64,000 nt of DNA from Alphaproteobacteria bacterium HGW-Alphaproteobacteria-1 (GTDB lineage: Bacteria > Pseudomonadota > Alphaproteobacteria > Rhodobacterales > Rhodobacteraceae). Both the position numbers and the translations under genes were made by a program. The notes below the pieces were generated by a model. That model worked only from the letters and a program-made list of their open reading frames with translations, did no database searches and was not told the origin of the DNA. The stretch spans positions 1-64,000 of the forward strand of contig PHEQ01000010.1 of the NCBI GenBank assembly GCA_002842985.1. Reading direction: 5' to 3'. Positions 2,317 through 29,076 of the stretch are shown here, in pieces (position 1 is the first letter of the stretch; each line of letters starts with the position of its first letter).

Positions 2317-3339
2317 TCACCGAACCACCTTGCCCGCGTGAACCATCTCAGTGCGGCCCTGCGCGCGCACTTCCCAGTCGACGCCCGCGCCATGGATGCG
2401 GAAAACCGCTGTCGCCATCGTGTTCTCGTCGTCGGGATCGTCGGGCGCGGTGCGAAAGATGGGCAGGCCGGGGCCGTCGGTATCGCGCAGGATGGCAAGC
2501 GGGTCGCGCACCTCTTCGGCCAGGAGGGCCGTGCCGCGCGCCTGCCGGTGGGCCGAGGAGCGGGTGATGCTCTGCCCCTCGGGGCCAAGGCGCAGGTGGA
2601 GTGCGTGATTGGCATGGACCTGCGGTTCGTCCACCTCCACCACCGAAACCGCGCCGCCGCCATATTCCACGCTCAGGAGGCGCGTATCGCCCGCCTGTGC
2701 AAAGGCCATGTGGAACCCGCCGCTATCGTTGTTGGCTTTGAAATGCGCGACCGCCTCGTCAAGGGATTGACACCCAAGCGCAGCGCGCCCCAGTGCCATG
2801 CGCGGCACCCCGGCCACGACGCCGCGCAGACGGATATTGTTGACCGCCTGTACCAGCCCCGCCCCGGTTACCGCGAAGGTATGGCCGGGGATAGAGCCGG
2901 GATAGCAGAAGGAGGTAAAGCCGGGCGCGCCCTCGGGCGTCACGTCGGCCAGGAAGACGTGGCCGGCAAGCCCCGGTAGACCGTCCTCGTTATGGGCAAT
3001 GACCGGCTCCGCCCCCGGCAAAAGAACCGTGGTGCAGCCATCGGGCGCGTTCGAGACAAGATCGCCCCGGCAATTCCAGGCAAGCACATGTTCGAAAGGC
3101 AGGGCCAGCCCCTCGGCCAGCCCCTCCATCTCCTCGTGGATGGCCGGAAAGCGCGCGCGCAGTCCCTCGCCCATCCGCGCGACCGCCGCGCGATGCGCGG
3201 GCGCGGTGACCGCCTGCCAATAAGGCGCGCCGAGCAGCACCTGATGCACCGCCGCGCGCCCCGCCTCGCCCAGGGCGCGCCCCACCTCGCGCGGGGTGCC
3301 GCGCGCGGTGATGCGGCCGAGTTCGGGCGCGCCGGTCAC
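2317..3339 (-). CDS. C45-type peptidase / acyl-CoA:6-APA acyltransferase family protein
   Basis: The 340-residue product resembles the acyl-CoA:6-aminopenicillanate acyltransferase (peptidase C45) branch of the Ntn-hydrolases. The sequence DGCTTVLLPG around Cys102, followed by IAHNEDG, matches the catalytic N-terminal nucleophile that is exposed by self-cleavage. Such enzymes hydrolyse or transfer an acyl group on an amide, so an N-acyl amino compound is the likely substrate. It is the last gene of the 12-gene operon and its start overlaps the upstream DUF1611 gene by 4 bases. The substrate cannot be read from the sequence; a plain amidase role is the main alternative. Confidence 0.8.
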   Translation of the reverse strand: MTGAPELGRITARGTPREVGRALGEAGRAAVHQVLLGAPYWQAVTAPAHRAAVARMGEGLRARFPAIHEEMEGLAEGLALPFEHVLAWNCRGDLVSNAPDGCTTVLLPGAEPVIAHNEDGLPGLAGHVFLADVTPEGAPGFTSFCYPGSIPGHTFAVTGAGLVQAVNNIRLRGVVAGVPRMALGRAALGCQSLDEAVAHFKANNDSGGFHMAFAQAGDTRLLSVEYGGGAVSVVEVDEPQVHANHALHLRLGPEGQSITRSSAHRQARGTALLAEEVRDPLAILRDTDGPGLPIFRTAPDDPDDENTMATAVFRIHGAGVDWEVRAQGRTEMVHAGKVVR

Positions 3340-4370
3340 GCCAGCACGGCCTCGGCCAGCCGTGCCGCGCCATTGCGCACCGGGTCGGCCGTGGGCAGGC
3401 CCGTCTCATTCTCGACAGCCCGAAGCGCGGCCTCGGCCTCGGTCGCAGTCAGCCGCGCTGTGTTGAGCGCGATGCCCACCACCCGCGCGGGCGTAAGCGC
3501 GCCCGCGGCCCGCGCCACCGCCTCGTTGAGCGCGATCACCTCGGGCAGGGGAGGCACGCGCACTTCGTCGAGCGTGTCGAGGGCCGTCATCCCCGCGCGG
3601 TGACACAGGATCATCCGGTTGCAGCAACTGCCGCGCATCAGCGGCAGCGTCGCCGTGCTGCCCGGATGCAGGAGCGAGCCTTGGCCCTCGATCACCAGCA
3701 CCTCATGCGCGGCGGCCTCGAGCACCATGCGTTCAACCATGCCGCCCGCGTGATCGACGCGCACCGCATCAAGCGGGATGCCCCGCCCGGTGATGGCGAT
3801 GCCGGTCTGCCCGGTGGCGAGAAAGGCCGCGTCGCGCCCCATCTCCTGCAAGCTGCGGGTGAGTTCGAGCCCGGCGGTCATCTTGCCGATGGCCATGTCG
3901 GTGCCGACCATCAGCACGCGGATATTGTCGAGCTTTGCCGCTCGCGCCATGGCGATGGGGGGCATGTCGCCCTGCGGCACGCGCAGGTCCCAGACCCATT
4001 GACCGGGCCTCAGATTGCCGCCGAGGACCGGCTCTAGCCGGTCATGCATGCCATTGACGATGCTGAGGCCGTCCGCCACGGCCTGTTGCAGGATCGCCAT
4101 CCATTCAGGTGGCACGCGCCCCCCCGAGGGGGCTGTGCCGAGAACCAGCACCTGCGCACCAAGCGCCTCGGCCTCAGCCAATGTGGCCACCACCGGCACG
4201 TCGCTGTCGAGCGGGCAGAGATCGCGCACGCGGCGGCCCGCCTGCGTGCTGTCGATCACGGCGGCAACGGGGTTCTTGCCATAGCGCAGGATGCCCTCGG
4301 CCATCTTGGCGTTGAGCTGGCCCATCGTGGCCTCGGCATAAAGCGCAATGGGTTGGGATGGATCAAGCAT
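3336..4370 (-). CDS. DUF1611 family protein, DgcN-like (paralogue 1)
   Basis: The 344-residue product belongs to the DUF1611 family. It has a P-loop-like segment VGTDMAIGKMTAG, then LATGQTGIAI and VIEGQGSLLHPG. In marine D-glutamate users a DUF1611 protein (DgcN) is reported to N-acetylate D-Glu before a racemase (DgcA) acts. The start was placed at MLDPSQPIALYAEATMGQ, which overlaps the racemase gene by 8 bases; the open frame extends 23 codons further upstream but that part is not family-like. A second, clearly diverged copy lies at 27922-28923. Whether this copy handles D-Glu or another amino compound is open. Confidence 0.82.
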   Translation of the reverse strand: MLDPSQPIALYAEATMGQLNAKMAEGILRYGKNPVAAVIDSTQAGRRVRDLCPLDSDVPVVATLAEAEALGAQVLVLGTAPSGGRVPPEWMAILQQAVADGLSIVNGMHDRLEPVLGGNLRPGQWVWDLRVPQGDMPPIAMARAAKLDNIRVLMVGTDMAIGKMTAGLELTRSLQEMGRDAAFLATGQTGIAITGRGIPLDAVRVDHAGGMVERMVLEAAAHEVLVIEGQGSLLHPGSTATLPLMRGSCCNRMILCHRAGMTALDTLDEVRVPPLPEVIALNEAVARAAGALTPARVVGIALNTARLTATEAEAALRAVENETGLPTADPVRNGAARLAEAVLA

Positions 4371-5397
4371 GGCGCAGGGCTCCTCCGTGGCCGGGGCGGT
4401 CTTCGGGCAGGGTGACGCCGTCCACGAAGGGCGCGCCATTGCCGGGATCCGGGTCGAGATTGAGATGGGAATCGAGGTCGATATAGTCGAACAGCGCCGA
4501 GAGCGACGCGCCGGCGGCGATGGAAACCGAGCTTTCGCCCATGCAGCCGATCATCGTCTTGAGACCAAAGGCGCGGGCGGTGGCGACGATGCGCAGCGCC
4601 TCGGTGATGCCGCCGCATTTCATCAGCTTGAGGTTCACCCCGTCCACCGCATCGGCATAGGCGGGAATATCGCTCGAAAACCGGCAGGATTCGTCCACGA
4701 ATATCGGCAAGGCGCGGTCCTTGAAGAGGGCAGGCAGTTGATCCTCGGCCCCGCGCACCAGCGGTTGCTCGACATATTCCACGCCGCGCGCGGCGAGCCA
4801 GTCCATCATGTGGCGTGCATCGCCCAGCGACCAGCCGCCATTGGCATCGACCCGAAGCGCCGCGCCGCTGCTCTTCGCGGCCTCCAGCACGGCGGCAAAC
4901 ATCGCCTTGTCGGCATCGATCCCCTCGGGGCTGCCCAGCTTGATCTTGAGCGCGCGCGCACCCTGTGCGAGCAGGAGCGGCACCCGGTCGCGCACCACTT
5001 CTGGCGGGTTGATCCCGACGGTGAGCGACGAGACCACGCCGCGCCGGGGAAGCCCGAGCAGCCGGTAAAGCGGCATCCCGGCCTCCTTGGCGCGCAGGTC
5101 CCACAGCGCCATGTCAAGGGCGGCCAGTGCGCATGGCGCCACGCCCGCCGCCTGCGCGGCCTGCCATGTCTCATGAATCGAGCCGGGCAGGCCATCCGAG
5201 CAGAACGCTTCGAGTTGTGCCTGCCCCTCGGCCACGTTCGCCGCGCCCTCGCTTGCGCCAGGGGCCATCTCGCCCCAGCCGGTATGCGCGCCCTCTGTCA
5301 CGGATACAAAGAGGTTCTCGCCCCCCGTGATCTCACCCCGAGAGATGCGCAGCGGGAACCGCTTTTTCAGATAGAGCGTTTGATAGGCGATCTTCAT
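4363..5397 (-). CDS. Enolase-superfamily racemase/epimerase, DgcA-like (paralogue 1)
   Basis: The 344-residue product has the muconate-lactonising-enzyme fold signatures: a KIK catalytic lysine motif at residues 151-153, metal ligands in VDANGGW (Asp184), YVEQPL (Glu210) and FVDES (Asp235), and the second base in LKLMKCGG (about Lys260). This arrangement is that of dipeptide epimerases and N-acetyl amino-acid racemases, which move a proton at C-alpha. It is coupled to the DUF1611 gene downstream (8-base overlap) and the HDAC-like gene upstream (4-base overlap). N-acetyl-D-Glu, an L-Ala-D/L-Glu type dipeptide, or a related N-acyl amino acid are all possible substrates. Confidence 0.85.
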   Translation of the reverse strand: MKIAYQTLYLKKRFPLRISRGEITGGENLFVSVTEGAHTGWGEMAPGASEGAANVAEGQAQLEAFCSDGLPGSIHETWQAAQAAGVAPCALAALDMALWDLRAKEAGMPLYRLLGLPRRGVVSSLTVGINPPEVVRDRVPLLLAQGARALKIKLGSPEGIDADKAMFAAVLEAAKSSGAALRVDANGGWSLGDARHMMDWLAARGVEYVEQPLVRGAEDQLPALFKDRALPIFVDESCRFSSDIPAYADAVDGVNLKLMKCGGITEALRIVATARAFGLKTMIGCMGESSVSIAAGASLSALFDYIDLDSHLNLDPDPGNGAPFVDGVTLPEDRPGHGGALRHA

Positions 5398-6422
5398 TGC
5401 GCACCTTCCATGATGCCGGTGAGAAAACTGGTGAGGTTGCCCCCAAGCGCGTCCGAGACATAGCCGCCCTCCTGCACCAGCAGAAGCGGCAGGCCAAGTC
5501 CCGCGATGGTGGCGGCGATGGTGCGGAAACCGGATGTGGTGACGCGCAGGCCCTGGAACGGGTCGTCCTCGTGGGCATCAAGGCCAAGCGCCACGATGAC
5601 CACATCCGCGCCGAAATCCGCGATCCGGTCGAGGGCCGTGGCAAGGGCGCGGTTGTAGCCCGCATCATCGGTGCCGCGCGGCAGCGGCAGGTTGAGGTTC
5701 GCGCCCAGCCCAGCCCCTGTCCCGCGCTCCTGCGCATGGCCCCAGAAGAACGGGTAAAAGCGCAGCGGATCGGCATGGATCGAGACGGTGAGCACGTCGC
5801 CGCGCGCATAGAATATCCCCTGCGTGCCGTTGCCGTGATGCACGTCCACATCAAGGATCGCGGGGCGCAGCCCGCGCGCGCGCAAGGCTTCGGCGGCAAT
5901 CGCCGCGTTATTCAGAAAGCAGAACCCCCCCGCCAGATCGGCGAAGGCATGATGCCCCGGCGGGCGGCAGAGCGCGTAGGCCGCGCGCGCGCCACCGGCC
6001 ACCGCCGCCGCACCCGAAAGGGCGGTCTGCGCCGACCAATAGGCGGCCTGCCATGTCTCGGCGGAGATGGGGCAGGCGGTATCGGCCTGATGATAGCCCG
6101 CCTGTCCCACGGCAGAGCGCGGATAACTGTCGGTGCGGTTGGCGGGGTGGATATTGGGGATCACCTCATCGCCCGCCCCCTCGATCCGCCGCCAGCGGGC
6201 GTGGATCGTGCGCAGGAAGGTGAGGTATTCGGCGGAATGAATGGCCGCGATCGGCCCCTGTCCGTGATCCTCGGGGGCCTCGAACCGCAGGCCCGCCGCC
6301 TCGCCCCCATTGCGCAGGATATCCACGCGCGCGGGCACTTCGGGGTTGGGCAGGACGCGCCCGTTGGCCATGAAATGGCGCGGGTCATGGGCCGATTGGC
6401 GGGGATCGAGAAAGGCTTTCAT
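5394..6422 (-). CDS. Class II histone deacetylase-like amidohydrolase
   Basis: The 342-residue product is a member of the HDAC/acetylpolyamine amidohydrolase family. The active-site pair PPGHHA (His157, His158), the zinc motif DVDVHHGNGTQ (Asp193 and His195) and the later GLDAHEDDP are all present, so the enzyme should be active. Bacterial relatives remove acetyl groups from acetylated polyamines or other N-acetylated amines. The start MKAFLDPRQS was chosen because it overlaps the GNAT gene stop by 4 bases; the longer frame is not family-like. Its position beside an acetyltransferase and a racemase suggests it removes an acetyl group from a pathway intermediate. Confidence 0.88.
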   Translation of the reverse strand: MKAFLDPRQSAHDPRHFMANGRVLPNPEVPARVDILRNGGEAAGLRFEAPEDHGQGPIAAIHSAEYLTFLRTIHARWRRIEGAGDEVIPNIHPANRTDSYPRSAVGQAGYHQADTACPISAETWQAAYWSAQTALSGAAAVAGGARAAYALCRPPGHHAFADLAGGFCFLNNAAIAAEALRARGLRPAILDVDVHHGNGTQGIFYARGDVLTVSIHADPLRFYPFFWGHAQERGTGAGLGANLNLPLPRGTDDAGYNRALATALDRIADFGADVVIVALGLDAHEDDPFQGLRVTTSGFRTIAATIAGLGLPLLLVQEGGYVSDALGGNLTSFLTGIMEGAQ

Positions 6423-6892
6423 GGCTGCTCCATCAAGCGGGTCAGGGCCGTGCCGGACAAAAGCGCGTTGCGATCCGCCTCGCGGATGGCAAAGCCCAGC
6501 CGGTCGTAAAAGGCGCGCGCGCGAGTGTTGTCCTGATATACGGTGAGGCGCAGCGCGACGGACTGCCAGCGCGCCGCGCCCTCTCGTGCCGCAGCGGCCA
6601 GAAGACGGCGGCCAAGCCCGGTACCGCGCGCGTCCCTGCACACCCAAAGGTCCGACACGAATGTAACCGCGCCGCCAAGCGAGGTGCTGAGCGTGGGTTG
6701 GGCCAGCACCGCGCCGTCCTCCCCGGCGAGGAGGGCAAAGGCGCGGGGCGCGGGACCGAAGAGCGCCGCGTCGAGCGTGGCCGCCTCCATGCGAAAGGGA
6801 TCATCAAGATCGCGCGCGAGCGCCTGCAAGGCGTGCATCAGCGCGGGCATGTCCTCGGGGTTTGCCACCCGGACCACGTCAGAAGCGCACAT
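6419..6892 (-). CDS. GNAT family N-acetyltransferase
   Basis: The 157-residue product has the GNAT acetyl-CoA-binding segment VCRDARGTGLGRRLL (the R/Q-x-x-G-x-G/A loop) and the C-terminal NTRARAFYDRLGF motif. It overlaps the beta-keto acid cleavage gene upstream by 14 bases and the HDAC-like gene downstream by 4 bases. An acetyltransferase and a deacetylase side by side point to temporary protection of an amino group during catabolism, though self-protection or detoxification is also possible. Confidence 0.88.
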   Translation of the reverse strand: MCASDVVRVANPEDMPALMHALQALARDLDDPFRMEAATLDAALFGPAPRAFALLAGEDGAVLAQPTLSTSLGGAVTFVSDLWVCRDARGTGLGRRLLAAAAREGAARWQSVALRLTVYQDNTRARAFYDRLGFAIREADRNALLSGTALTRLMEQP

Positions 6893-7805
6893 GATCCGCC
6901 CCTTTCAACCCCAGCATCGCGCGCGCCTCGGCGGGGGTGGCCACCTCGCGGCCCAAAGCCTCGACAATGCCCCGCGCCTTTTCCACCTGTTCGGCGTTGG
7001 AGCGCGCCAATTGCCCGCGCGCGATCATCAGGCTGTCCTCCAGCCCCACGCGCACATGCCCGCCCATCCCCGCCGCCATCGCTGCCATGGGCATCTGGTG
7101 CCGCCCGGCGGCGAGCACGGAAAAAAGGTAATCCTCGCCGAAATACCGATCCGCCAGCCGCTTCATGTGAGTGAGGTTCTCGGGGAGTGCCTCCATCCCC
7201 CCCAGCACGCCGAAGACAAACTGGAGAAAGACCGGCGCGCGCACCAGCCCGCGATCCATGAAATGGCGCAGCATGGTCAGGTGGCCGGTATCGTAGCATT
7301 CGAACTCGAAACGCGCGCCGCGTTCCTCGCCCATGCGGCGCAAAACGGCCTCGATATCGCGCGGCGTGTTCTTGAAGACCAGATCGTCCGATCCTTCAAG
7401 AAACGGCCTTTCCCAGTCGAAGCGCCAGTCGCTGATCCGCGCGGCCATCGGGTAGAGCGCGAAATTCATCGTGCCCATGTTGAGCGAGCACATTTCCGGC
7501 GCGGCGGCCAGCGGCCCTTCAAGGCGCTCGTCAAGACTCATGACCGCGCTGCCGCCGGTGGTGAGGTTGATGATCGCATCGGAGCGGCGGGCAATCTCGG
7601 GCAAAAAGGCCATGTAATGCGCGGCGCGCGCCGAAGGGCGGCCCGTCTCGGGATCGCGCGCGTGCAGATGCAGGATCGCCGCCCCCGCCTTGGCCGCCGC
7701 CACCGCCTGATCTGCGATATCCTGTGCCTGACAGGGCAGGTAGGGCGACATCGAGGGGGTGTGGATCGAGCCGGTGACGGCGCAGGTCAGTATGATCTTG
7801 GACAT
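6879..7805 (-). CDS. Beta-keto acid cleavage enzyme (BKACE, DUF849)
   Basis: The 308-residue product starts MSKIILTCAVTGSIHTPS and carries HLHARDP with His46 and His48, the zinc ligands of the 3-keto-5-aminohexanoate cleavage enzyme (Kce) family at the same positions. These enzymes condense a beta-keto acid with acetyl-CoA and release acetoacetate plus a new CoA ester. This fixes the logic of the operon: some step, probably the transamination next door, must yield a beta-keto acid. The start was placed 11 codons inside the open frame at the conserved N-terminus. The aminotransferase stop lies just upstream with 1 base between. Confidence 0.92.
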   Translation of the reverse strand: MSKIILTCAVTGSIHTPSMSPYLPCQAQDIADQAVAAAKAGAAILHLHARDPETGRPSARAAHYMAFLPEIARRSDAIINLTTGGSAVMSLDERLEGPLAAAPEMCSLNMGTMNFALYPMAARISDWRFDWERPFLEGSDDLVFKNTPRDIEAVLRRMGEERGARFEFECYDTGHLTMLRHFMDRGLVRAPVFLQFVFGVLGGMEALPENLTHMKRLADRYFGEDYLFSVLAAGRHQMPMAAMAAGMGGHVRVGLEDSLMIARGQLARSNAEQVEKARGIVEALGREVATPAEARAMLGLKGADHVRF

Positions 7806-7806
7806 G

Positions 7807-9141
7807 TCACAGCCCGCATTCGGCGGTGAACCGGTCAAGCGCGCGCCCGAGCTTCTCCATGATCTCGTCCACTTGTGCCTCGGTCACGATCATCGGCGGG
7901 GCGACGATGAAATGATCGCCCTCATGCCCGCCTCGCGAGCGGCGCGCATAGATGATCAGCCCCTCGTCATAGGCGGCCTCGGTCAGCCGGTCATAGGCGT
8001 CGAGGGGCTTGGGCAGCGGCGCGCGGCTCTGGCGGTCCGAGACCAGCTCGAAGGCCTGCAAGAGGCCCATGCCGCGCACGTCGCCGATGATGTCGTGGCG
8101 CTGCATCAGCGCCTTCAGCCGCAGATGAAGAAGATCCCCCATGGCCACGGCATTCTTCATCATGCCTTGCCGCTCGATCTCGTCGATCACGGCAAGCCCT
8201 GCCGCGCAGGCCAGAGGATTGCCGGCATAGGTAAAGCCGTGCGGATAGCTGCCATGGTCGAGCACCGCCTCGACGATGGTATCGCGCGCGATGAGCGCGC
8301 CAAGCGGCATGTAGCCAGAGCCGAAGCCTTTGGAAATCGTGATCATGTCGGGCACCACGCCCCAGTGATCGGCGGCCAGAAAGCGCCCCGTGCGCCCGCC
8401 CCCCGATATCACCTCGTCATGGATCAGCAGAATGCCGTAGCGGTCACATATCTCGCGGATGCGCGGCATGTAGCCCGCAGGCGGCACCAGCGCCCCGGTC
8501 GAGGCACCGCCGATCGGCTCCACGATGAAGGCGAGCACGGTTTCGGGGCCTTCCTCAAGGATCTGGCGTTCCAGCATGTCGGCGTAATGCTGCCCCGTCG
8601 CGGGGTCATCGAGCGGCAGGCCATCAAGCCAGGCGCGCGGCGCGGGGATTTTCGGCATCTGCGCCATCATCGGCGCGTAGGGGGCCGTCATCGGCGCATA
8701 GCCCGTGACCGAGAGCGCACCAAGCGTGCAGCCGTGATAGGCCGGAAAGCGCGAGATCACCTTCCATCTTTGCGCCTCTCCAATGGCAAGGGCATGGCTG
8801 CGCGCGAGTTTCAGCGCGGATTCCACCGCCTCGGACCCGCCCGACACGAAGAACACCCGCCCCAGTCCCTCGGGCGCGATGCCTGCCAGCCGGTCGGCCA
8901 GTCGTTCCGCCGGTTCGGTCTCGAAATGGAGGCGATAGCCGAAGGTCGCCACCTCCATCTGGGCGCGCATCGCCTCAAGCACCGCCGGGTTGGAGTGGCC
9001 GATATTGCACACCATCGCGCCGGACGAGCCGTCAAGCCAGCGCCGCCCGTCCACCGCGTCGATATAGACGCCGGTCGCGCGGGCGAGTTTCGGCCTGCGC
9101 CGTCGCGAGCCGTAGAAGAGCCGCGATGTATCCTGCATCAT
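7807..9141 (-). CDS. Class III (omega) aminotransferase
   Basis: The 444-residue product is a fold-type I PLP enzyme of class III. It contains the cofactor region VSGGSEAVESALKLAR, the Asp of LIHDEVISGGGRTGRF, and the Schiff-base lysine in ITISKGFGSGYMPLGA. Members act on omega-amines or beta-amino acids with pyruvate or 2-oxoglutarate as acceptor. The ATG overlaps the livF stop by 4 bases; a second ATG follows directly. Together with the BKACE gene downstream, a beta-amino acid substrate giving a beta-keto acid is attractive. A diverged second member is at 16794-18116. Confidence 0.9.
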   Translation of the reverse strand: MMQDTSRLFYGSRRRRPKLARATGVYIDAVDGRRWLDGSSGAMVCNIGHSNPAVLEAMRAQMEVATFGYRLHFETEPAERLADRLAGIAPEGLGRVFFVSGGSEAVESALKLARSHALAIGEAQRWKVISRFPAYHGCTLGALSVTGYAPMTAPYAPMMAQMPKIPAPRAWLDGLPLDDPATGQHYADMLERQILEEGPETVLAFIVEPIGGASTGALVPPAGYMPRIREICDRYGILLIHDEVISGGGRTGRFLAADHWGVVPDMITISKGFGSGYMPLGALIARDTIVEAVLDHGSYPHGFTYAGNPLACAAGLAVIDEIERQGMMKNAVAMGDLLHLRLKALMQRHDIIGDVRGMGLLQAFELVSDRQSRAPLPKPLDAYDRLTEAAYDEGLIIYARRSRGGHEGDHFIVAPPMIVTEAQVDEIMEKLGRALDRFTAECGL

Positions 9142-9851
9142 GCTACCCAGAACGCCTTTTCCAGATCGGTGAAATCGCCAGATGGCCCCTCGTATTTGTT
9201 GCGGCCCAGTTCCAGCACATAGACGTAATCCGCGATCTTGAGGGCGTGGCGGATTTCCTGATCGACCAGCAGGATTGTCAGTCCCTCGTCGCGCAGGTCC
9301 GTGAGCATGTCATAGACCTCTTGCGCCAGAAGCTTCGACAGCCCCGCCGTCGGCTCATCGACCAGAAGCATCTTCGGCTCTGCCATCAGCGTGCGGCCGA
9401 TTTCCACCATGCGTTGCTGACCGCCCGACAATTCGCCGGTGGCCTGTTTGCGCTTGTCGCGCAGCGCCGGGAATCGCTCGTAATTGGCCTCGATCTTGCG
9501 GCGGATCTGCGCGCGGTCGCGCCGGAAGGTCCATCCGCCAAGCTCCAGGTTTTCCTCCACGGTCATGTCCTTGAACACGCCCGGCTGCTGCGGGATGTAG
9601 GCCAGCCCCTCGTTGATGCGGCGATGGGTGGGGATGTCGATGATGTTCTTGCCCTCAAGCAGAACCTCGCCCTGAAACGGCCGCAGAAATCCGAACGCGG
9701 CCTTGAGTGCCGTGGATTTGCCCACGCCGTTCGCGCCCAGAATGGTGGTGATCTGCCCGCGCCGCGCGGTGATGTGCAGATCGCTGAGGATGTTGAGATC
9801 GCGGTAATAGCCGACCGAGAGATCGCGCAGTTCCAGAACCGCCTCGGTCAT
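9138..9851 (-). CDS. livF: Branched-chain-type amino acid ABC transporter ATPase LivF
   Basis: The 237-residue ATPase has Walker A GANGVGKST, the ABC signature LSGGQQRMVEIGR and Walker B LLVDEPTAGLS. Length and the YIPQQPGVFKDMTVEENL stretch are typical of LivF. It is the second ATPase of a HAAT-family importer and sits on the cytoplasmic face. The start overlaps livG by 4 bases. The family name says branched-chain amino acids, but many members carry other amino acids, amides or urea, and the attached enzymes argue for another substrate. Confidence 0.93.
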   Translation of the reverse strand: MTEAVLELRDLSVGYYRDLNILSDLHITARRGQITTILGANGVGKSTALKAAFGFLRPFQGEVLLEGKNIIDIPTHRRINEGLAYIPQQPGVFKDMTVEENLELGGWTFRRDRAQIRRKIEANYERFPALRDKRKQATGELSGGQQRMVEIGRTLMAEPKMLLVDEPTAGLSKLLAQEVYDMLTDLRDEGLTILLVDQEIRHALKIADYVYVLELGRNKYEGPSGDFTDLEKAFWVA

Positions 9852-10585
9852 GCCGCGTCCTCCTCGTCGTCGCGGCCGAGATAGGCCTCGATCACGGCGG
9901 GGTCGTTCTTGACGTCCTCGGGGCTGCCATCGGCAATCAATTCGCCGAAGTTCAGCACGATGAGCCGTTCGGAGAGCGCAAAGATCGCGTCCATCTGGTG
10001 CGAGATGAGGATGATCGCCTTGCCCTCGGATTTCATCCGCCGGATATAGGCATAGATCACCTCCATCAGCTTGGGATGCACGCCCGCGAAAGGCTCATCG
10101 AGGATGATCACATCGGGGTCGAGCATCAGCAGGCGACCCAGTTCCAGCAGTTTCTGCTGCCCGCCCGAGAGAGCGCGCGCGTATTCGTTGCGCAGATGGT
10201 CGATGGTGAGGAATTCCAGCACCTCGGTGGCCCGCTCGGTCAGCGCGCGCCCCTGTGACATATGGCCAAGCGCCAGAGCGGGGACATAGAGGTTTTCCAG
10301 CACCGTCATGCGCCGGAAACTGCGCGTCACCTGAAACGTGCGCCCGAGGCCTGCACGGGCCACCTCGTAGGGCTGCAACTGGTCGATGCGCCGCCCGTTG
10401 AGATAGACCGTGCCCGATGACGGCTTGATCGCGCCGTCAAGGATATTGGTCAGCGTCGTCTTGCCCGCGCCATTGGGGCCAAGCACGCCGATCAACTCCG
10501 GCCCGTTCACCTCCAGATTGACGCCCTTGAGGACGTGCAGCCCGCCAAAGCTCTTGTGCAGGTTGGTGACCTTGAGATGGATCAT
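9848..10585 (-). CDS. livG: Branched-chain-type amino acid ABC transporter ATPase LivG
   Basis: The 245-residue ATPase starts MIHLKVTNLHKSFGGLHVLK, with Walker A GPNGAGKTT, signature LSGGQQKLLELGR and Walker B IILDEPFAGVHP. The longer open frame upstream runs through livM in another frame and is not used. The start overlaps livM by 4 bases and the stop overlaps livF by 4 bases. It partners LivF under the LivH/LivM permease. Confidence 0.93.
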   Translation of the reverse strand: MIHLKVTNLHKSFGGLHVLKGVNLEVNGPELIGVLGPNGAGKTTLTNILDGAIKPSSGTVYLNGRRIDQLQPYEVARAGLGRTFQVTRSFRRMTVLENLYVPALALGHMSQGRALTERATEVLEFLTIDHLRNEYARALSGGQQKLLELGRLLMLDPDVIILDEPFAGVHPKLMEVIYAYIRRMKSEGKAIILISHQMDAIFALSERLIVLNFGELIADGSPEDVKNDPAVIEAYLGRDDEEDAA

Positions 10586-11784
10586 GGCTGCGTCTCCCCG
10601 GTCTTGGCGGTGCGTTTGGCGATGGTTTCCTCGGCCACGCCCGCGCGGGCGAAATAGTCGATGAGCGGCGCGATGAGGCCGTTGCGGAAAAACCGCAGCA
10701 CCACCATCAGCAGCACCCCGAAGAACACCAGCCGCCATGTTGTCATGTCCACCGTCACCCCGCCGATGGAGAAGCTTGTGCGCATCAACTCGAGCATGAC
10801 CTGAAGGAAGATCGCGCCGAGGGCGGCGGCGACGAAATTTTCCACCCCGCCGATCACGGCCATCGCCACGACAAGTGACATTTGCAGCAGGAACAGCATG
10901 TTGGGCGTGACGATCTGGATGTAATGCGCCTGCACAGCGCCCGCCGCCGCGGCCATGGCCGTGGTGATGGTAAAGACAAACACCTTGTAGCGCGTGGTGT
11001 TGACGCCCAAGGCGGCGGCGGCATCGGCATCTTCGCGCAGCGCCCGCACGAAGAGGCCAAAGCGCGAGCGGGCGAGCCATGTGAGGATCAAAAGGCAAGC
11101 AAGCAGCAGGAAGAACATGGCGTAATAGGGCGGTATCTTGTCGGTGCGGGTGAACTCGGTGCCAAGGATAGTGACCCCGTCATTGAAGAGCGCGGGCAGC
11201 ACCATGCCCGCCTGACCGCGCGTGATGTCGATCTCGGCCGAGATCACCGCCTTGATGATTTCCGAGAAGCCCAGCGTGAAGAGCGCAAGATAGGCCGCGC
11301 GCAGCCGCAGCACCAGCAGCCCCACCAGCAGGCCCGAAAGCCCGCCTGCCACCGTGCCCAGCACGATCCCCAGCAGAACCGGCATCCGCCAGACCTTCAC
11401 GCTGTCGCCCCAGCCTGAGATGGCCTGTTCCAGACAGTCCTGTGTCAGCGTGGTCGAGGTCACGCCGATCGCGTTCTTGATCACCAGCCAGTTGCCGAAG
11501 AACGCGTATTCCGTGCAAAGCCCCGTGGGCTCAGCGGTCAGGTAGAAGTAATGGCTGAACAGTGCGGCGCCATAGGCGCCGATCCCCATGAAGGCCATGT
11601 GGCCAAAGCTGAACTGTCCGGCATAGCCCGCCAGCATCGACCAGCTTGACGCGAGGATCGCGTAGAAAAAGCCGGTGATGAGGACATGCATCACATAATC
11701 GTAATTGCCGCCCGTATAGACAAGCGGGAAGGCCGCGAAGAAAAGCACAAGGCAAAGACCGGCAATATTGGGAACCTGTCGCAT
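10582..11784 (-). CDS. livM: Branched-chain-type amino acid ABC transporter permease LivM
   Basis: The 400-residue membrane protein has about ten hydrophobic segments and the cytoplasmic coupling motif RALREDADAAAALGVNTTRYK that contacts the ATPase. The segment QFSFGHMAFMGIGAYGAAL is typical of LivM. A loop after the second segments (about residues 95-125) is longer than usual and contains two cysteines (Cys in GLCTEY and in QDCLEQA). One base separates its start from the livH stop. Confidence 0.92.
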   Translation of the reverse strand: MRQVPNIAGLCLVLFFAAFPLVYTGGNYDYVMHVLITGFFYAILASSWSMLAGYAGQFSFGHMAFMGIGAYGAALFSHYFYLTAEPTGLCTEYAFFGNWLVIKNAIGVTSTTLTQDCLEQAISGWGDSVKVWRMPVLLGIVLGTVAGGLSGLLVGLLVLRLRAAYLALFTLGFSEIIKAVISAEIDITRGQAGMVLPALFNDGVTILGTEFTRTDKIPPYYAMFFLLLACLLILTWLARSRFGLFVRALREDADAAAALGVNTTRYKVFVFTITTAMAAAAGAVQAHYIQIVTPNMLFLLQMSLVVAMAVIGGVENFVAAALGAIFLQVMLELMRTSFSIGGVTVDMTTWRLVFFGVLLMVVLRFFRNGLIAPLIDYFARAGVAEETIAKRTAKTGETQP

Positions 11785-11785
11785 C

Positions 11786-13057
11786 TCAGCCCCCCTGCCC
11801 GTGCATACCCGACGAGAACCGCCGCCCGAATAGCCCCGTAGGCCGCAGCAGAAGCGTCAGCGTCAGCACGATCATGCCATAGGCGGGAATATAGGACGCA
11901 GCCTTTTGCGCGTCGGGAATGCAGCCCGTTCCCGCCGCCTCCACCAGCCCCACCATGATGCCGCCGACAAAGGCACCGGGCAGCGAGCCGAGGCCCCCCA
12001 GAACGACGATGACGAAAGAGCGCATCGCCGGAATGGCCCCCACCTGCGGCAGCCAGGAAAACGCCTGCACCAGCAGCGCGCCCGCCAGTGCAGCGATCAT
12101 GCCGCCCAGGGCAAAGGCCAGCATGTTCATGCGGTTCGGGTCGATGCCCGCGATGGCGGCGGCCTCGCGGTCCTGACTGACCGCGCGCAGCGCCTTGCCG
12201 GTCCAGGTCCGGTGCAGCAGGTAAAGCAGCGCCAGCAGCACCAGAATGCAGGTCACGGCGGCGGTAAACCGGGGATTGGAGATCGAAACCGTATCGAACA
12301 GCGTGAGATTGCCCCGGCTGGTGGCGATCACGGGCGTCTCGGCCCCGGCAGGCCATTCGAAGCGCGGGAAATCGATGAACCGTTGCACCTTGACCGGGCT
12401 TGCCCCGTGGATTGCCTGCACGAAATATTGCAGGGTGAAGGCCAGTCCGAAGGTGGCGAGGATGCCGTATTCCACGGGGCGGTCGATCTTGCCGGTATAC
12501 ATCGGCGTCAGCATCGCGCGCTCGAAGATGGCCCCGATGCAGAAGGCGATGAAACAGGCCCCGAGCACCCCCATGAGCGGCCCCGCATCGGGAAACCAGA
12601 CCACGGTTATGTAATAGACCAGCATCCCGCCGATCATGTAGAACTCGCCATGGGCAAAGCTAACCACGCCGAGGATCGAGAAGATCAACGTCAGGCCAAG
12701 CGCCATGAACCCGTAGATGATGCCGATGATGATGCCGTTGGTGATCTGGCTGGCGCGGAAGGCGCCATTGGCGACGCAGTTGTTTTCCGGATCGGCAAAG
12801 GAAAAGGCCGCAGCGATCAGCACCACCGCCAGAAGCGCCAGCGCCGTGGTCAGGCGCGCGCTGAGCGCGGGCGTGCGCAGCCACAAAAGGCCCACACCCA
12901 CAGGCCCGAGTGCCGCGCCCGCCATCGCGCCCGCAAACGGCACGTTGGAGGTGTCGAGATCGCGCGCGAGATAGCGACGACGCAAGAGCACCGCGCCCAG
13001 CACGCCCCAACCGATCATCCACAGGATGACGGTCCAGAAGATTTCGGGTGTCTGCAC
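11786..13057 (-). CDS. livH: Branched-chain-type amino acid ABC transporter permease LivH, long form
   Basis: The 423-residue membrane protein has the LivH core from about residue 100 (ITNGIIIGIIYGFMALGL, then GVVSFAHGEFYM) and the EAA-like loop AVSQDREAAAIAGIDPNRMN. Ordinary LivH proteins are near 300 residues. The extra N-terminal 90 residues include two or three hydrophobic segments separated by an RRRYLARDL linker. A good ribosome site (CGGAGGAC) precedes the chosen ATG, so the extension is probably translated. A hairpin lies between livK and this gene. Confidence 0.9.
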   Translation of the reverse strand: MQTPEIFWTVILWMIGWGVLGAVLLRRRYLARDLDTSNVPFAGAMAGAALGPVGVGLLWLRTPALSARLTTALALLAVVLIAAAFSFADPENNCVANGAFRASQITNGIIIGIIYGFMALGLTLIFSILGVVSFAHGEFYMIGGMLVYYITVVWFPDAGPLMGVLGACFIAFCIGAIFERAMLTPMYTGKIDRPVEYGILATFGLAFTLQYFVQAIHGASPVKVQRFIDFPRFEWPAGAETPVIATSRGNLTLFDTVSISNPRFTAAVTCILVLLALLYLLHRTWTGKALRAVSQDREAAAIAGIDPNRMNMLAFALGGMIAALAGALLVQAFSWLPQVGAIPAMRSFVIVVLGGLGSLPGAFVGGIMVGLVEAAGTGCIPDAQKAASYIPAYGMIVLTLTLLLRPTGLFGRRFSSGMHGQGG

Positions 13058-13102
13058 GGATCAGTCCTCCGTTGGCACGGTCGGCGCTTCAAGCGGAACG
13101 GT

Positions 13103-13127
13103 CGGGCCGGGAGGCGTTCCCGGCCCG
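13103..13127 (-). terminator. Hairpin between livK and livH (attenuator-like)
   Basis: GGGCCGGGA and TCCCGGCCC form a perfect 9-pair stem, 10 pairs with the flanking C-G, around a 5-base loop. There is no T-run, so it is more likely a partial terminator or a 3'-end stabiliser that keeps livK transcripts in excess over the membrane genes than a full stop. Confidence 0.6.
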
Positions 13128-13133
13128 GATCGC

Positions 13134-14378
13134 TTACCGGTTGACCCAGATCGGCTCTGCGGTCTTGTAGGCCTCGGGATAGACGATCGCCGCATCGGTC
13201 GAGGCCTGCCCCTGTTTCTGGAACTGGATGATGGTGATGGCCGGGTCGGGCCACTGGTGCCACCATTCATCGCCCTTGCCGTCTGCGGACGGGTCACGCT
13301 TCAACCCGTAGTCGAAATAGATCCGCCCCAGTGTGCCCTCGTGGCTGATTTTCTCCAGCGCGGTGACGATGGCATCGCCATCGGTGCTGCCCGCCTCCTC
13401 GATCGCCTGCGCCAGAACGGCGATGGAATCATAGGCCTCCATCGCGTAGCTTTCCACGTCCGACTTGCCGGTCTTGGCCTTGTAGGCGGCGGCAAAGGCG
13501 CGGCCCTTGTCGGTGAACTGGCTCTCGGGCACGCCGATGCGCTGGACAAAGGCGTATTGCCCGTCCGGCACGTTGGTCCAGTAGGTGCCCGATTCAAGCG
13601 CGTCCTGCCCGGTCTGGAACGGCAGGTCCATCGGGCCGATCCCGGCATCCGCCGCCTGCTGGGTAAAGTTGAAGGCCGCCTCGCCGGTCACCAGGGTGAT
13701 GATCATGTCGGGGGTTTCCGCCTTGATCCGCTCGACGATGCCCGCGTAATCCTGCGTGCCGATATCGACCGAAAAGATCGTCGCGGCGACGCCGTTGGCC
13801 TCAAGCCCCTTGGCCGTCTCCTGGCTGGCGGGGATGCCGTAATCGGTGTTTTCGGTCAGGATCGCCACTTTCTTGATGTCCGGCAGGGTCAGCGCGAACT
13901 GCCAGTTGATGTTCGAGGTCCAGGAGGACAGCGGCGCGATGCGGAAGATGTATTTATGCTTGTCGCCGGTGATGGTGTCGTTCCATGTCTCGGCAAAGAC
14001 CACCGGCACGCCGCGCGCATCGGCCACTTCCTTGGCCGCGACGCCCACCGAACTGTGATAGCCGCCGCCGATGGCCACAACGTTGTCCTGGGTGATCAGG
14101 CGCTCGGTCACGGCGGTGGCGCGCTCGGGCAGGCCCTCGCTATCGGCAAGCACCACCTCGATGGGGCAGCCCAGAACGCCACCCGCCGCGTTGATATCGG
14201 CCTGCGCGAGCATCATGGCGTCGCGCATCGCCTCGCCGCCGACCACGGTGCCGGGGGCCGAAAGCGGCGCAAGCGCGCCGATCTTGATCGGGCAGTCCTG
14301 CGCCATCGCCGCTCCGGCCGAAAGCGCGATCGTCGCCGCCGACAGCATGAGGCCGCGCCGTGTCAGAATGCTGGTCAT
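13134..14378 (-). CDS. livK: Periplasmic amino-acid-binding protein LivK-type
   Basis: The 414-residue product starts with a signal peptide (MTSILTRRGLMLSAATIAL, cleavage near AMA-QD), then a Leu/Ile/Val-binding-type fold: PIKIGALAPLSAPGTVVGG, the ADINAAGGVLG hinge motif, and VAAKEVADARGVPVVFAE. It captures the substrate in the periplasm for LivHMGF. A ribosome site (GGGAGA) lies upstream of the ATG. It is the first gene of the operon and is divergent from the GlxA-type regulator, so the operon promoter should lie within 14379-14523. Confidence 0.93.
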   Translation of the reverse strand: MTSILTRRGLMLSAATIALSAGAAMAQDCPIKIGALAPLSAPGTVVGGEAMRDAMMLAQADINAAGGVLGCPIEVVLADSEGLPERATAVTERLITQDNVVAIGGGYHSSVGVAAKEVADARGVPVVFAETWNDTITGDKHKYIFRIAPLSSWTSNINWQFALTLPDIKKVAILTENTDYGIPASQETAKGLEANGVAATIFSVDIGTQDYAGIVERIKAETPDMIITLVTGEAAFNFTQQAADAGIGPMDLPFQTGQDALESGTYWTNVPDGQYAFVQRIGVPESQFTDKGRAFAAAYKAKTGKSDVESYAMEAYDSIAVLAQAIEEAGSTDGDAIVTALEKISHEGTLGRIYFDYGLKRDPSADGKGDEWWHQWPDPAITIIQFQKQGQASTDAAIVYPEAYKTAEPIWVNR

Positions 14379-14523
14379 CTCAAGTCTCCCTGTCTGGTCC
14401 GGTGTTGGTCCCGGAATTGGGGCGCATCACGCGCCTGTGACGACACGTTGCGGCAGTTGCCGAGGCCCTGTCTTTCGTTTATCCGTCATTTTCATCTGAA
14501 AACAGACATAAGGATGCGTTCGG
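14379..14523. promoter_or_regulatory. Divergent promoter region between livK and glxA-type regulator
   Basis: This 145-base gap must hold the promoters of both the minus-strand catabolic operon and the plus-strand regulator. I see a short direct repeat (GGTCCGG and GGTCCCGG near 14396-14414) and an A/T-richer block at 14470-14510, but no clear -35/-10 pair. AraC-type regulators usually bind two direct half-sites, so the repeat is the first place to look. Confidence 0.45.
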
Positions 14524-15543
14524 GTGCACCCGCGCAGCAAGGCGAAGCCGGATGTGCCGCAATTCGAGGCACTGACGCCGGGTACCGAGACGGCTCTTTC
14601 GGTGGGGGTTCTTCTCTGGCCCAGCTTTCCGATGATGTCGCTGGCGGGGCTGGTCGAGAGCCTGCGCCATGCAGGCGATCACGGCGACGATTCGCAGCCG
14701 CGCTATGCGCGTTGGCAGATCGTCGGTGCGCCCGGCTCCGCGATACGGTCAAGCTGCGGGATTCCGGTGCCCGCGACCTCGGATTACGTCCATCCCGGCC
14801 GGTTCGATCATCTCTTTGTCATCGGTGGCCTCTTGCGCGACATGGAGAGCGCGCCGCCGCGCCACCGCGATTACCTGCACGCTGCGCGGCGGGCAGGCGT
14901 GCCGCTGGTGGGAGTCTGCACGGGCAGTTTCGTGCTGGCGCGGGAGGGGTTTCTCGATGGCCGCCCGGTCTGCGTCCACCCCTATCATCAGGGCGATTTC
15001 GAAGCGGCCTTTCCCGGCCACCGCTTTGTCACCAACCGCGATTTTGCGGCGGCGGGCGATGTGACGACGGTGCTGGGAGGCGTGTCGATCCTGCCGCTGA
15101 TGAAACGGCTTATCGGCGCGCATCTGGGTCCTGATCGCGCCGCCAAGGTCGAGCATCAGATGACCTTGCCCACGCCCGAGGCCGCGCCGATGCAGCGCGA
15201 GGGGCCAGAGCGGGGCGCGATCACCGATCCGCGCATTCAGCGCGCGCTTGTCATCCTGGACGCCGAGGCGAGCCGGACCCCCTCCATCGCAGCACTGGCG
15301 CGCACGCTCGGCCTGAGCGAACGGCATTTCCTGCGACTCTTCAAGGCGCAGGTCGGTATGGCCCCAAAGGCGTATCTGCTGGAAACCAAGCTGCGCGCGG
15401 CGGTCTGGATGCTGCGCAACACCGCGCGCTCGATCACCTCGGTGGCCTATGCCGCAGGGTTCGCCAGCGGCGCGAACCTTGCCGATCACTGCCGCAGGCG
15501 GCTTGGGCGAACGCCCGGCGCGATCCGGCGGGGATCGGGGTAG
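14524..15543 (+). CDS. GlxA family transcriptional regulator (DJ-1/PfpI + AraC HTH)
   Basis: The 339-residue product has an N-terminal DJ-1/PfpI-like domain (about residues 20-200, with LVGVCTGSFVLA) and a C-terminal AraC-type double helix-turn-helix (ALARTLGLSERHFLRLFK, then ITSVAYAAGFASGANLADHC). The family includes regulators of carnitine, glycine betaine and arginine catabolism. It starts with GTG and is transcribed away from livK, so it is the obvious candidate regulator of the operon, probably an activator responding to the imported compound. The Cys in the DJ-1 domain is in a normal place, but these domains usually only sense ligand. Confidence 0.9.
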   Translation: MHPRSKAKPDVPQFEALTPGTETALSVGVLLWPSFPMMSLAGLVESLRHAGDHGDDSQPRYARWQIVGAPGSAIRSSCGIPVPATSDYVHPGRFDHLFVIGGLLRDMESAPPRHRDYLHAARRAGVPLVGVCTGSFVLAREGFLDGRPVCVHPYHQGDFEAAFPGHRFVTNRDFAAAGDVTTVLGGVSILPLMKRLIGAHLGPDRAAKVEHQMTLPTPEAAPMQREGPERGAITDPRIQRALVILDAEASRTPSIAALARTLGLSERHFLRLFKAQVGMAPKAYLLETKLRAAVWMLRNTARSITSVAYAAGFASGANLADHCRRRLGRTPGAIRRGSG

Positions 15544-18116: not shown

Positions 18117-18144
18117 GGCGGCATCCTTTGATCGGCGGCGCCAG

Positions 18145-18201
18145 TGAAACAAATGAATCAAGTGTTGACAATAGATGAAACGAATGGAACGACTTGTTTC
18201 A
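18145..18201. promoter_or_regulatory. Candidate operator/promoter for the aminotransferase and RpiR-type regulator
   Basis: An inverted repeat with TGAAACAA at 18145-18152 and CTTGTTTCA at 18193-18201 brackets a consensus-like -35 hexamer TTGACA at 18165-18170. A third GATGAAACGA copy lies at 18174-18183. The repeated TGAAAC half-site is what a dimeric RpiR-type regulator would bind. No good -10 hexamer could be placed. If transcription of the regulator begins near 18195, its upstream ATG codons at 18175 and 18184 would be outside the message. Confidence 0.5.
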
Positions 18202-19086: not shown

Positions 19087-19119
19087 ATCTACCGCAACGA
19101 CATCAATCAAAGGGAGACT

Positions 19120-20094: not shown

Positions 20095-20110
20095 TCGGCG
20101 ATTGTTCCCG

Positions 20111-20134
20111 GCAGGGGCGGCGCGCCGCCCCTGC
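20111..20134 (+). terminator. Hairpin between TAXI binding protein and TRAP permease
   Basis: GCAGGGGCGGC pairs with GCCGCCCCTGC across a minimal GC loop, followed by TGTTTGCGTTT. It is probably a partial terminator that raises the ratio of binding protein to permease, the same arrangement as after livK and ugpB. Confidence 0.65.
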
Positions 20135-20217
20135 TGTTTGCGTTTGGGAAAATGACCCCAATCGCCTAACGTTGACAGACCGCGGAGCAAACGCGGCGTG
20201 ACAGGGAGAGTGTGACG

Positions 20218-26914: not shown

Positions 26915-26918
26915 GGTC

Positions 26919-27884: not shown

Positions 27885-27921
27885 GCCGCCCCCCGTTTCA
27901 CTGTTCCAAAAATACTCACTC

Positions 27922-28923: not shown

Positions 28924-29076
28924 CGCGGGGGCCTTCCTGTCCTGCGTCCGTGGCAAAGATGACTCAGAGCTTGCGGCATGTCCTGCCTGATTCAGGCGCT
29001 GGCGGCGATTTCATGCATGATCCTTCGCGATTTTGGTCATTTGCGCGAATATTGTGCGATCCGTTCGGAGGCCGGT

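Follow-up and report, generated by a model that had tools for sequence, protein, structure and literature searches.

An alphaproteobacterial operon that may break down an acetyl-shielded beta-amino acid

Which amino compound is consumed by an operon that couples the genes for an importer to those for seven enzymes, and do these enzymes all act on one molecule? We addressed this question for Alphaproteobacteria bacterium HGW-Alphaproteobacteria-1, which is close to Roseovarius, in a window of 64,000 nucleotides (the whole stretch of DNA that was analysed; contig PHEQ01000010.1). Our best explanation, to which we assign a probability of about 40%, is that the operon imports and breaks down an amino compound via a beta-keto acid; beta,omega-diamino acids, for example beta-lysine in free or N-acetylated form, are likely substrates. 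Throughout, activities and substrates are predictions from protein family and gene order.

Anatomy of the operon

The span 2317..15543 holds twelve minus-strand genes, arranged head to tail and all with open frames, and one gene on the opposite strand. Pfam and NCBIfam searches provided the family assignments of livK, of the regulator and of all seven enzymes. The first gene, livK (13134..14378; Peripla_BP_6, 193.8 bits), encodes the periplasmic binding protein of a LIV/HAAT-type ABC importer. It is followed by open reading frames for two permeases, livH (11786..13057) and livM (10582..11784), and two ATPases, livG (9848..10585, read from the ATG at 10585) and livF (9138..9851), which were named solely from sequence and from matching genes at other loci; their counterparts in Roseovarius autotrophicus SHN287 (locus L034) are 97, 94, 96 and 99% identical, respectively. 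The enzyme genes begin with AT3, a class III aminotransferase and the predicted beta-keto acid maker (7807..9141; Aminotran_3, 325.9 bits), and BKACE (6879..7805; PF05853, 364.6 bits against a threshold of 24.8, over positions 1-274 of the 274 in the profile), for which a TTG at 7838 is likewise open. Next come a GNAT N-acetyltransferase (6419..6892; Acetyltransf_1, 50.8 bits) and an HDAC-like deacetylase of the acetylpolyamine-amidohydrolase group (5394..6422; Hist_deacetyl, 235.4 bits when the longer open frame 5394-6647 is used). The last three genes encode a DgcA-like racemase/epimerase of the enolase superfamily (4363..5397; MR_MLE_C, 120.9 bits), a DgcN-like DUF1611 protein, predicted to be a D-amino-acid N-acetyltransferase (3336..4370; DUF1611, 228.5 bits; DUF1611_N, 83.5 bits), and a C45-family autoproteolytic acyltransferase/hydrolase (2317..3339; NF040521, 240.7 against a cut-off of 85). 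The divergent plus-strand gene (14524..15543) encodes a GlxA-type regulator with a DJ-1/PfpI domain (32.7 bits) and an AraC-type HTH (HTH_18, 73.4 bits), which scores 115.5 against the GbdR model, under its cut-off of 480.

The genes are tightly joined. After a computed gap of 76 bases between livK and livH, a single base separates livH from livM, and overlaps of 4 bases each link livM-livG, livG-livF and livF-AT3. AT3 and BKACE are 1 base apart, counting BKACE from its ATG at 7805, and the BKACE-GNAT overlap is 14 bases; overlaps of 4 bases follow at GNAT-HDAC and HDAC-DgcA, of 8 bases at DgcA-DUF1611 and of 4 bases at DUF1611-C45. Open frames, computed joins and family matches thus bear out the original prediction of twelve one-strand genes, joined in this way, with a GlxA-type regulator diverging from them.

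A conserved core with interchangeable importers

Since the gene caller of our script is crude in high-GC DNA, where some genes were missed or misplaced, loci were compared by tblastn with identity thresholds. R. autotrophicus SHN287 has the identical order of twelve genes, with 83-99% protein identity, and other alphaproteobacterial families retain much of the enzyme set. Among 198 family genomes examined, 28 have an orthologous BKACE, and in 25 of these the HDAC-like gene lies at most 3.5 kb away from it. AT3 adjoins BKACE in 38 of the 69 loci retrieved through HDAC or BKACE matches; where more than 4.2 kb of downstream sequence was available (31 of the 38), we found HDAC in 28, GNAT in 23 and DauA, a relative of D-arginine dehydrogenase, in 15. 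Likewise, AT3 and BKACE are adjacent in 16 of 80 loci found with DUF1611, and all 16 carry GNAT, HDAC and DgcA. In another set of 20 loci, BKACE is more distant and lacks an adjoining AT3 in nine; none of the nine has an HDAC at 50% or above.

The core itself varies. AT3 is absent at 6 of 20 family BKACE loci, where no class III aminotransferase was found at useful similarity; this rules out AT3 and BKACE as a constant pair. HDAC is still present in five of the six (L233, L236, L240, L241 and L242). L243 consists only of LIV-AT3-BKACE-DgcA-DUF1611, with neither GNAT nor HDAC, while L179 and L228 have no HDAC and L180 has an M20 deacylase in its place. In favour of an acyl-CoA product, a scan of 159 sequences with three thioesterases as queries detected relatives at most 8 kb from BKACE in 7 of them. 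The conserved core is AT3-BKACE-(GNAT)-HDAC, in which GNAT is optional and AT3 not constant.

A chance grouping of unrelated genes in a densely packed genome has virtually no probability: apart from the variable gene content, we found nothing in its favour, and the translational overlaps and the conserved linkage speak against it, the linkage already refuting it. A single tightly coupled unit had been proposed, and both the recurrence of the gene order in R. autotrophicus and the BKACE-HDAC linkage across the family uphold this.

The importers are exchanged. Homologous loci have Pot-type or amino-acid-type importers in place of the LIV importer found here; those of Pot type occur in many loci and weakly match putrescine/spermidine-binding proteins. 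This excludes a strict link of the enzymes to the LIV importer, and the expectation that enzymes and transporter would be conserved together was not borne out. The C45 gene is found only with LIV importers in the loci scanned: relatives occur in four LIV loci (L034, L047, L053 and L055) and in none of the other 31. Of the co-occurrence proposed as a check for BKACE, HDAC-like, racemase and C45 genes, the BKACE-HDAC part stands; the racemase is exchangeable, and C45 keeps to the LIV importer in these loci.

A predicted route through a beta-keto acid

In our preferred reading, GNAT would acetylate the distal amine, or else import would deliver a compound that is already acetylated. The acetyl group would prevent ring closure of the keto acid formed later, and the acetylated diamino compound would be neutral. 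AT3 would then transfer the beta-amino group onto an acceptor keto acid, giving a beta-keto acid, which BKACE would convert with acetyl-CoA to acetoacetate and an acyl-CoA. The HDAC-like enzyme would take the acetyl group off, and the free acid may be released by a thioesterase, as encoded near some other cores, or perhaps by C45 here. An acetoacetate CoA-transferase of SCOT/PcaI type is present in the genome. That the aminotransferase yields a beta-keto acid for BKACE to cleave is what the families best predict, in line with the original prediction, and the GNAT and HDAC-like genes likewise argue for an acetyl group that is added and removed.

This scheme resembles an aerobic L-beta-lysine pathway that the Barker group reportedly described in a Pseudomonas (EC 2.6.1.65, EC 3.5.1.51), and that is apparently known only through enzymology of the 1970s and 1980s. 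Its acetyltransferase, transaminase, acetyl-CoA cleavage of 3-keto-6-acetamidohexanoate and deacetylase correspond one to one to GNAT, AT3, BKACE and HDAC, so that all four enzyme families of that route occur in one operon; unlike the operon, the pathway has no D-alpha-amino-acid step. We know of no genes assigned to it. A literature search for beta-lysine breakdown genes yielded no relevant paper, and a description of the operon's gene set was not found in the literature searched. Given the match to four enzyme types, the earlier statement that no described pathway has this enzyme set was too strong. Beta-lysine would need an outside source, because lysine 2,3-aminomutase (TIGR03820) has no match in this genome, which rules out a home-made supply; among 30 genomes, none had a match over the cut-off and four matches were sub-threshold.

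BKACE passes NF053538, '3,5-dioxohexanoate:acetyl-CoA acetone transferase' (489.5 against 430), and scores 371 bits with BKACE15 of P. denitrificans (8RIO/8RIP), which ranks third behind the uncharacterised 3E02 and 3E49. Placed by this model and by its closeness to BKACE15 among the groups described in PMC4922564, it groups with enzymes predicted to act on neutral substrates; the subgroup matched carries the name of 3,5-dioxohexanoate, not of an acetamido acid. Kce, which cleaves 3-keto-5-aminohexanoate in lysine fermentation, shares the enzyme family and reaction type (PMC4922564), but the Kce subfamily cut-off of 382 is not reached by the BKACE of the window (245.5). AT3 remains without a named function, since its best NCBIfam model, PRK07483, gives 443.7, under the cut-off of 485; no GABA transaminase was found above cut-off, and GNAT passed no NCBIfam cut-off.

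In the carnitine route, too, a beta-keto acid, dehydrocarnitine, is split by BKACE, and the SAR11 gene island contains an acyl-CoA thioesterase gene (PMC12482172, PMC12421898). There, however, the keto acid comes from a dehydrogenase and not a transaminase, the substrate is charged, and there is no acetyl step. A carnitine dehydrogenase was looked for beside BKACE, and the operon has no dehydrogenase gene.

The nearest solved relatives of the HDAC-like enzyme are acetylpolyamine amidohydrolases (3MEN, 334 bits; 9GKZ, 303; 3Q9B, 272). Together with the Pot-type importers of many loci, this would fit a polyamine route, with the HDAC-like enzyme as acetylpolyamine amidohydrolase, GNAT as polyamine acetyltransferase and AT3 as polyamine transaminase. 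We consider this very improbable and reject it as the whole story: it leaves unexplained BKACE, which constantly accompanies HDAC in the family; Pot is replaced by LIV and amino-acid importers; and E106 and E117 of 3Q9B, which we take to bind the polyamine, align with V105 and A116 here, so that the acidic pair is absent. LivK is closest to the amino-acid-binding proteins 3IP5 and 3IPC (87 and 85 bits) among solved structures, and neither it nor the Pot binding protein gave a hint of its ligand in this comparison.

An exchangeable D-amino-acid module

Behind the core lie D-amino-acid genes that differ between operons: DgcA and DUF1611 here, and elsewhere, in the same position, the DauA relative (304 bits against D-arginine dehydrogenase, 3NYC), which is absent here and which RidA accompanies about half the time. 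In Parasedimentitalea marina, an amidohydrolase and an alanine racemase follow AT3-BKACE-HDAC on a plasmid; a plasmid search with DgcA returned only relatives below 60%. DgcA occurs in none of the 15 DauA loci retrieved through HDAC or BKACE matches, and DauA in none of the 16 DgcA loci found with DUF1611. We propose that DUF1611 and DgcA form a separate module that would convert a substrate-linked D-amino acid to its L-form as the N-acetyl derivative, a role that the D-arginine-dehydrogenase relative or alanine racemase would take in other operons. The D-amino-acid step anticipated by the original prediction is indeed attached, with DgcA-DUF1611 as one of three exchangeable solutions and not as a fixed member. 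The single unit holds; a linear order in which all enzymes act on one compound would be a further assumption.

The pair has a known counterpart in DgcN-DgcA, which racemise D-glutamate and related acidic D-amino acids (PMC12363236). N-acetylation followed by racemisation would work alike in both, with the individual roles of DgcN and DgcA taken from NCBIfam names. The operon proteins nevertheless score under the equivalog cut-offs (DUF1611 protein, 229.2 of 480 for NF041892; DgcA-like, 191.3 of 400 for NF042940), whereas a second pair in the window (26919-28956), serving as control, lies above both (DgcN, 542.2; DgcA, 509.8). This rules out the known D-glutamate pathway for the operon pair. 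D-glutamate is already served by the true pair, which stands with a D-amino-acid transaminase at 26054-28956.

The DauA relatives keep a residue that presumably favours basic D-amino acids; the operon DgcA keeps the ISRG arginine, a residue that presumably favours acidic side chains and that the true DgcA of the window has as well. Read as substrate predictors, the two do not agree on one substrate. Conceivably, the distal part of the substrate is a D-alpha-amino acid, as in a 2,5-diamino dioic acid or a comparable compound, so that BKACE would release acetoacetate and a D-glutamate-type acyl-CoA, to be acetylated by DUF1611 and inverted by DgcA, or oxidised by DauA. While this would explain both the D-amino-acid enzyme behind BKACE and the kept arginine, it is improbable, as BKACE falls among enzymes for neutral substrates and we know of no abundant natural compound of this type.

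It is rather unlikely, though several observations fit it, that a single promoter and importer serve two independent functions without a common intermediate: AT3-BKACE-GNAT-HDAC would degrade a beta-amino acid, and DUF1611-DgcA, DauA or a racemase would rescue D-amino acids in general. The halves form separate operons in five genomes: where the pair has no adjoining BKACE, the core lies elsewhere in 5 of 11 genomes tested, and the other six have no close BKACE (four with a 53-58% relative and no AT3 in view, two with none). DgcA-DUF1611 relatives also occur within other pathways, such as downstream of the ald-xsc-pta genes of some Gammaproteobacteria, and the window has its true DgcN-DgcA pair besides. 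Against this, three unrelated solutions occupy one position behind the core, and pair and core have recombined, which suggests a common substrate. In the core tree, Pot operons with DgcA join Pot operons without it (0.998), and LIV operons stand apart (1.0); in the DgcA-DUF1611 tree, by contrast, the Pot copies are nested among the LIV copies (0.997). This disagreement suggests that Pot operons acquired the pair from LIV operons.

Within the acetyl-shielded beta-amino acid reading, it is possible, if tentative, that the operon contains the missing genes for aerobic beta-lysine breakdown in the form of a mobile module. Alphaproteobacteria would freely join this module to importers of three kinds and to three D-amino-acid enzyme sets that are unrelated to one another, including a new, non-canonical DUF1611-DgcA pair moved as a unit, and the acetyl group would serve as ring shield and as handle for inversion.

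If the preferred reading is true, it would provide testable genes for a breakdown route apparently known only from early enzymology, and would point to widespread use of beta-amino compounds, such as the salt protectant N-epsilon-acetyl-beta-lysine, by marine, soda-lake and root bacteria. It would also divide the DUF1611 and DgcA families into a D-glutamate branch and a second branch in a different setting, both present in one window. Because unrelated D-amino-acid enzymes replace each other behind a single gene set, nature has in effect run an experiment on the shape of the substrate.

The operon and its surroundings

The twelve minus-strand genes at 2317–14378 encode LivKHMGF, a class III aminotransferase (AT3), a beta-keto acid cleavage enzyme (BKACE), a GNAT protein, an HDAC-like deacetylase (HDAC), DgcA, DUF1611 and C45. 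As originally predicted, they form an operon: the genes and their families were confirmed (livH, livM, livG and livF by sequence and by matches in other loci only), the joins are tight and the enzyme set is widespread. At ten of the 11 joins, neighbouring genes overlap by 4, 8 or 14 bases or lie 1 base apart, the sole exception being the widest, a 76-base gap between livK and livH. Gene order is identical in Roseovarius autotrophicus SHN287 (L034; L-numbers denote homologous loci fetched from other genomes), including the ribosomal protein genes adjoining C45. C45, the last gene, ends 61 bases from the convergent rplW (ribosomal protein L23; region 184–2317), a layout that L034 shares. Since rplB was not spotted in the window's gene lists, which were read by eye only, the S10 ribosomal operon seems to be interrupted beside C45.

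About 10.5 kb beyond the operon's regulator (14524–15543), the minus strand at 26054–28956 carries a second pair of the DUF1611-DgcA type, a true DgcN-DgcA pair (542 bits against 480 and 510 against 400), and after it a D-amino-acid transaminase gene (PRK06680, 371 against 320). The window therefore holds two DUF1611-DgcA branches, and D-glutamate is already served by these genes. The region 16794–22845 encodes another class III aminotransferase (762 bits to the PRK07483 model, versus 485), a TAXI-type TRAP transporter (TIGR02122, 355 bits; TIGR02123, 631 bits) and a divergent regulator judged by eye to be RpiR-like.

Distribution of the enzyme set

Among 198 Rhodobacteraceae genomes searched with DUF1611, 152 gave a match at E <= 1e-30; orthologs (56–81% identity) occur in eight genomes besides the window's own, and many genomes hold clearly separate copies of about 40% identity, one of them inside the window. 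BKACE orthologs (at least 68%) are present in 28 of the 198, with HDAC at most 3.5 kb away in 25, and six of the nine genomes with a DUF1611 ortholog also have one of BKACE (five of eight without the window's genome; Fisher p = 0.0014, uncorrected for kinship).

AT3 adjoins BKACE in 16 of 80 named loci fetched with DUF1611 as query, and all 16 contain GNAT, HDAC, DgcA and DUF1611. The others are cut by contig ends, hold a partial set (L036, L037, L041, L044, L056), the DgcA-DUF1611 pair alone (Rhodobacteraceae, Gammaproteobacteria, Verrucomicrobiota, Armatimonadota and others) or DUF1611 without partners (some cyanobacteria and gammaproteobacteria). A further 69 loci were fetched starting from HDAC or BKACE, nine of them from genomes chosen for holding the pair without adjoining BKACE. 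AT3 and BKACE are adjacent in 38, of which 31 have more than 4.2 kb downstream; these contain HDAC (28/31), GNAT (23/31), DauA, a relative of D-arginine dehydrogenase (15/31), RidA (8/31, always next to DauA) and an M20 deacylase (3/31). Literature searches listed no paper on this set, a cassette that is widespread and apparently undescribed.

Within the family, BKACE and HDAC are the more constant pair: of 20 BKACE loci fetched, 14 contain AT3 and 17 HDAC, and five of the six without AT3 (L230, L233, L236, L240, L241, L242) retain HDAC. L241 also keeps GNAT, DauA and RidA. Such loci weaken the view of AT3 as an obligatory step; the transaminase gene may lie outside the locus, or the keto acid may arise by another route in some versions. 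L240 and L242 carry BKACE-GNAT-HDAC near genes that, by eye, look like those for peptide-importer parts and a membrane dipeptidase.

Exchange of importers and D-amino-acid steps

The conserved unit is the enzymes rather than the importer. The LIV importer accompanies the full set in the window, L034, L047, L050, L052, L053 and L061, and a set without GNAT and HDAC in L243. Pot-type importers are found in eight of the 16 DUF1611-found AT3-BKACE loci and in 20 of the 31 found via HDAC or BKACE. PAAT-type (amino-acid) importers occur in L183 (SBP_bac_3), L215 (binding protein 172 bits to a lysine/arginine/ornithine model, below the cut-off of 256) and L216 (by eye), and on Shinella, Roseateles and Parasedimentitalea plasmids.

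The D-amino-acid step is exchanged as well. In many operons without DgcA, HDAC is followed by the DauA relative (304 and 301 bits to 3NYC), joined by RidA in eight of 15 DauA loci; in Parasedimentitalea marina, AT3-BKACE-HDAC precedes an amidohydrolase and an alanine racemase. DgcA is present in none of the 15 DauA loci and DauA in none of the 16 DgcA loci. This exclusion counts as a pattern rather than a test, because the loci are related, 16 of the 31 HDAC- or BKACE-found loci have neither gene, and the sample was selected: the 16 DgcA loci had been found via DUF1611, five known DgcA-bearing family genomes were omitted when fetching later loci, and the DgcA-bearing L243 was dropped for too little flanking room.

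In a FastTree tree of AT3, BKACE and HDAC (32 rows), the seven LIV operons form a single clade (support 1.0), and nine DgcA-bearing Pot-group operons, one with its importer out of view, group with the DgcA-less Pot operons L176 and L177 (0.998). In the DgcA-DUF1611 tree (39 rows), 14 Pot-group copies (six without PotD in view), L041 and L046 group with the window, L034, L047 and L053 (0.997), and the LIV copies L050, L052 and L061 fall outside. Read most simply, the trees point to transfer of the pair from a LIV operon of the window's type into a Pot operon; a core swapped beneath it would give the same picture.

In eleven genomes whose pair lacks an adjoining BKACE, that gene was sought elsewhere. 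Five have AT3-BKACE-GNAT-HDAC as a separate operon elsewhere (L215–L219; HDAC is cut by the contig end in L217, and L218 is closely related to L219), four have a BKACE of only 53–58% with AT3 out of view (upstream side cut in L221), and the two gammaproteobacteria have none at E <= 1e-60. In L058 and L059, DgcA-DUF1611 lies opposite a LIV operon that encodes an oxidase of weak similarity to L-pipecolate oxidase AmaA (133 bits of 600) and, in L059, also an AT3 relative (43%); the BKACE of these genomes, at just 58% identity, is located elsewhere. In five gammaproteobacterial loci (L063, L066, L068, L080, L082), the DgcA-DUF1611 branch follows genes for alanine dehydrogenase and sulfoacetaldehyde acetyltransferase, both of which were verified in L063, and one that looks like pta by eye. 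This taurine-type sulfonate setting hints at another D-amino acid or a sulfonate analogue there.

Proposed chemistry and substrate

BKACE enzymes convert a beta-keto acid and acetyl-CoA into acetoacetate and a new acyl-CoA. A transaminase preceding BKACE would make a beta-amino acid the natural substrate, and GNAT and HDAC would respectively add and remove an acetyl group shielding a second amine. The beta-lysine pathway of Pseudomonas comprises N6-acetylation, transamination, acetyl-CoA cleavage, and deacetylation with thioester hydrolysis, the same steps as proposed for GNAT, AT3, BKACE and HDAC. The chemistry of the original prediction is right in outline; its single linear pathway is hypothetical. 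The closest characterized BKACE found uses neutral C5–C6 keto acids (PMC11961710).

Thioesterase genes lie within 8 kb of BKACE in seven of 159 sequences scanned (L161, L182, L183, L187, L245, L247, L252) with three queries drawn from three of these same loci, in agreement with an acyl-CoA product. The Arctic SAR11 carnitine island likewise has both BKACE and an acyl-CoA thioesterase (PMC12421898). That the compound is at times encountered as an amide is suggested by C45 in the window and by assorted amide hydrolases close to other cores: M20 in L187, a dimethylformamidase-like protein in L183, M24 in L181 and DUF1028 in L152, a locus that has AT3 and HDAC and lacks BKACE. In L181, L182, L183, L233 and L246, the gene for a large protein resembling dimethylformamidase (DMFA2_C; in L183, 233 bits) lies about 3–5 kb before or beside BKACE, immediately before AT3 in L183 and L246.

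Beta-lysine as substrate leaves the D-amino-acid step unexplained, and the sequence hints conflict: in alignments, the DauA relative retains the glutamate associated with binding of basic side chains, whereas DgcA retains the arginine associated with acidic ones. Lysine 2,3-aminomutase had no match in the window's genome, so the substrate would be imported. The genome also encodes a SCOT/PcaI-type CoA-transferase; of its eight matches to class III aminotransferases, none passes the cut-off for GABA-transaminase.
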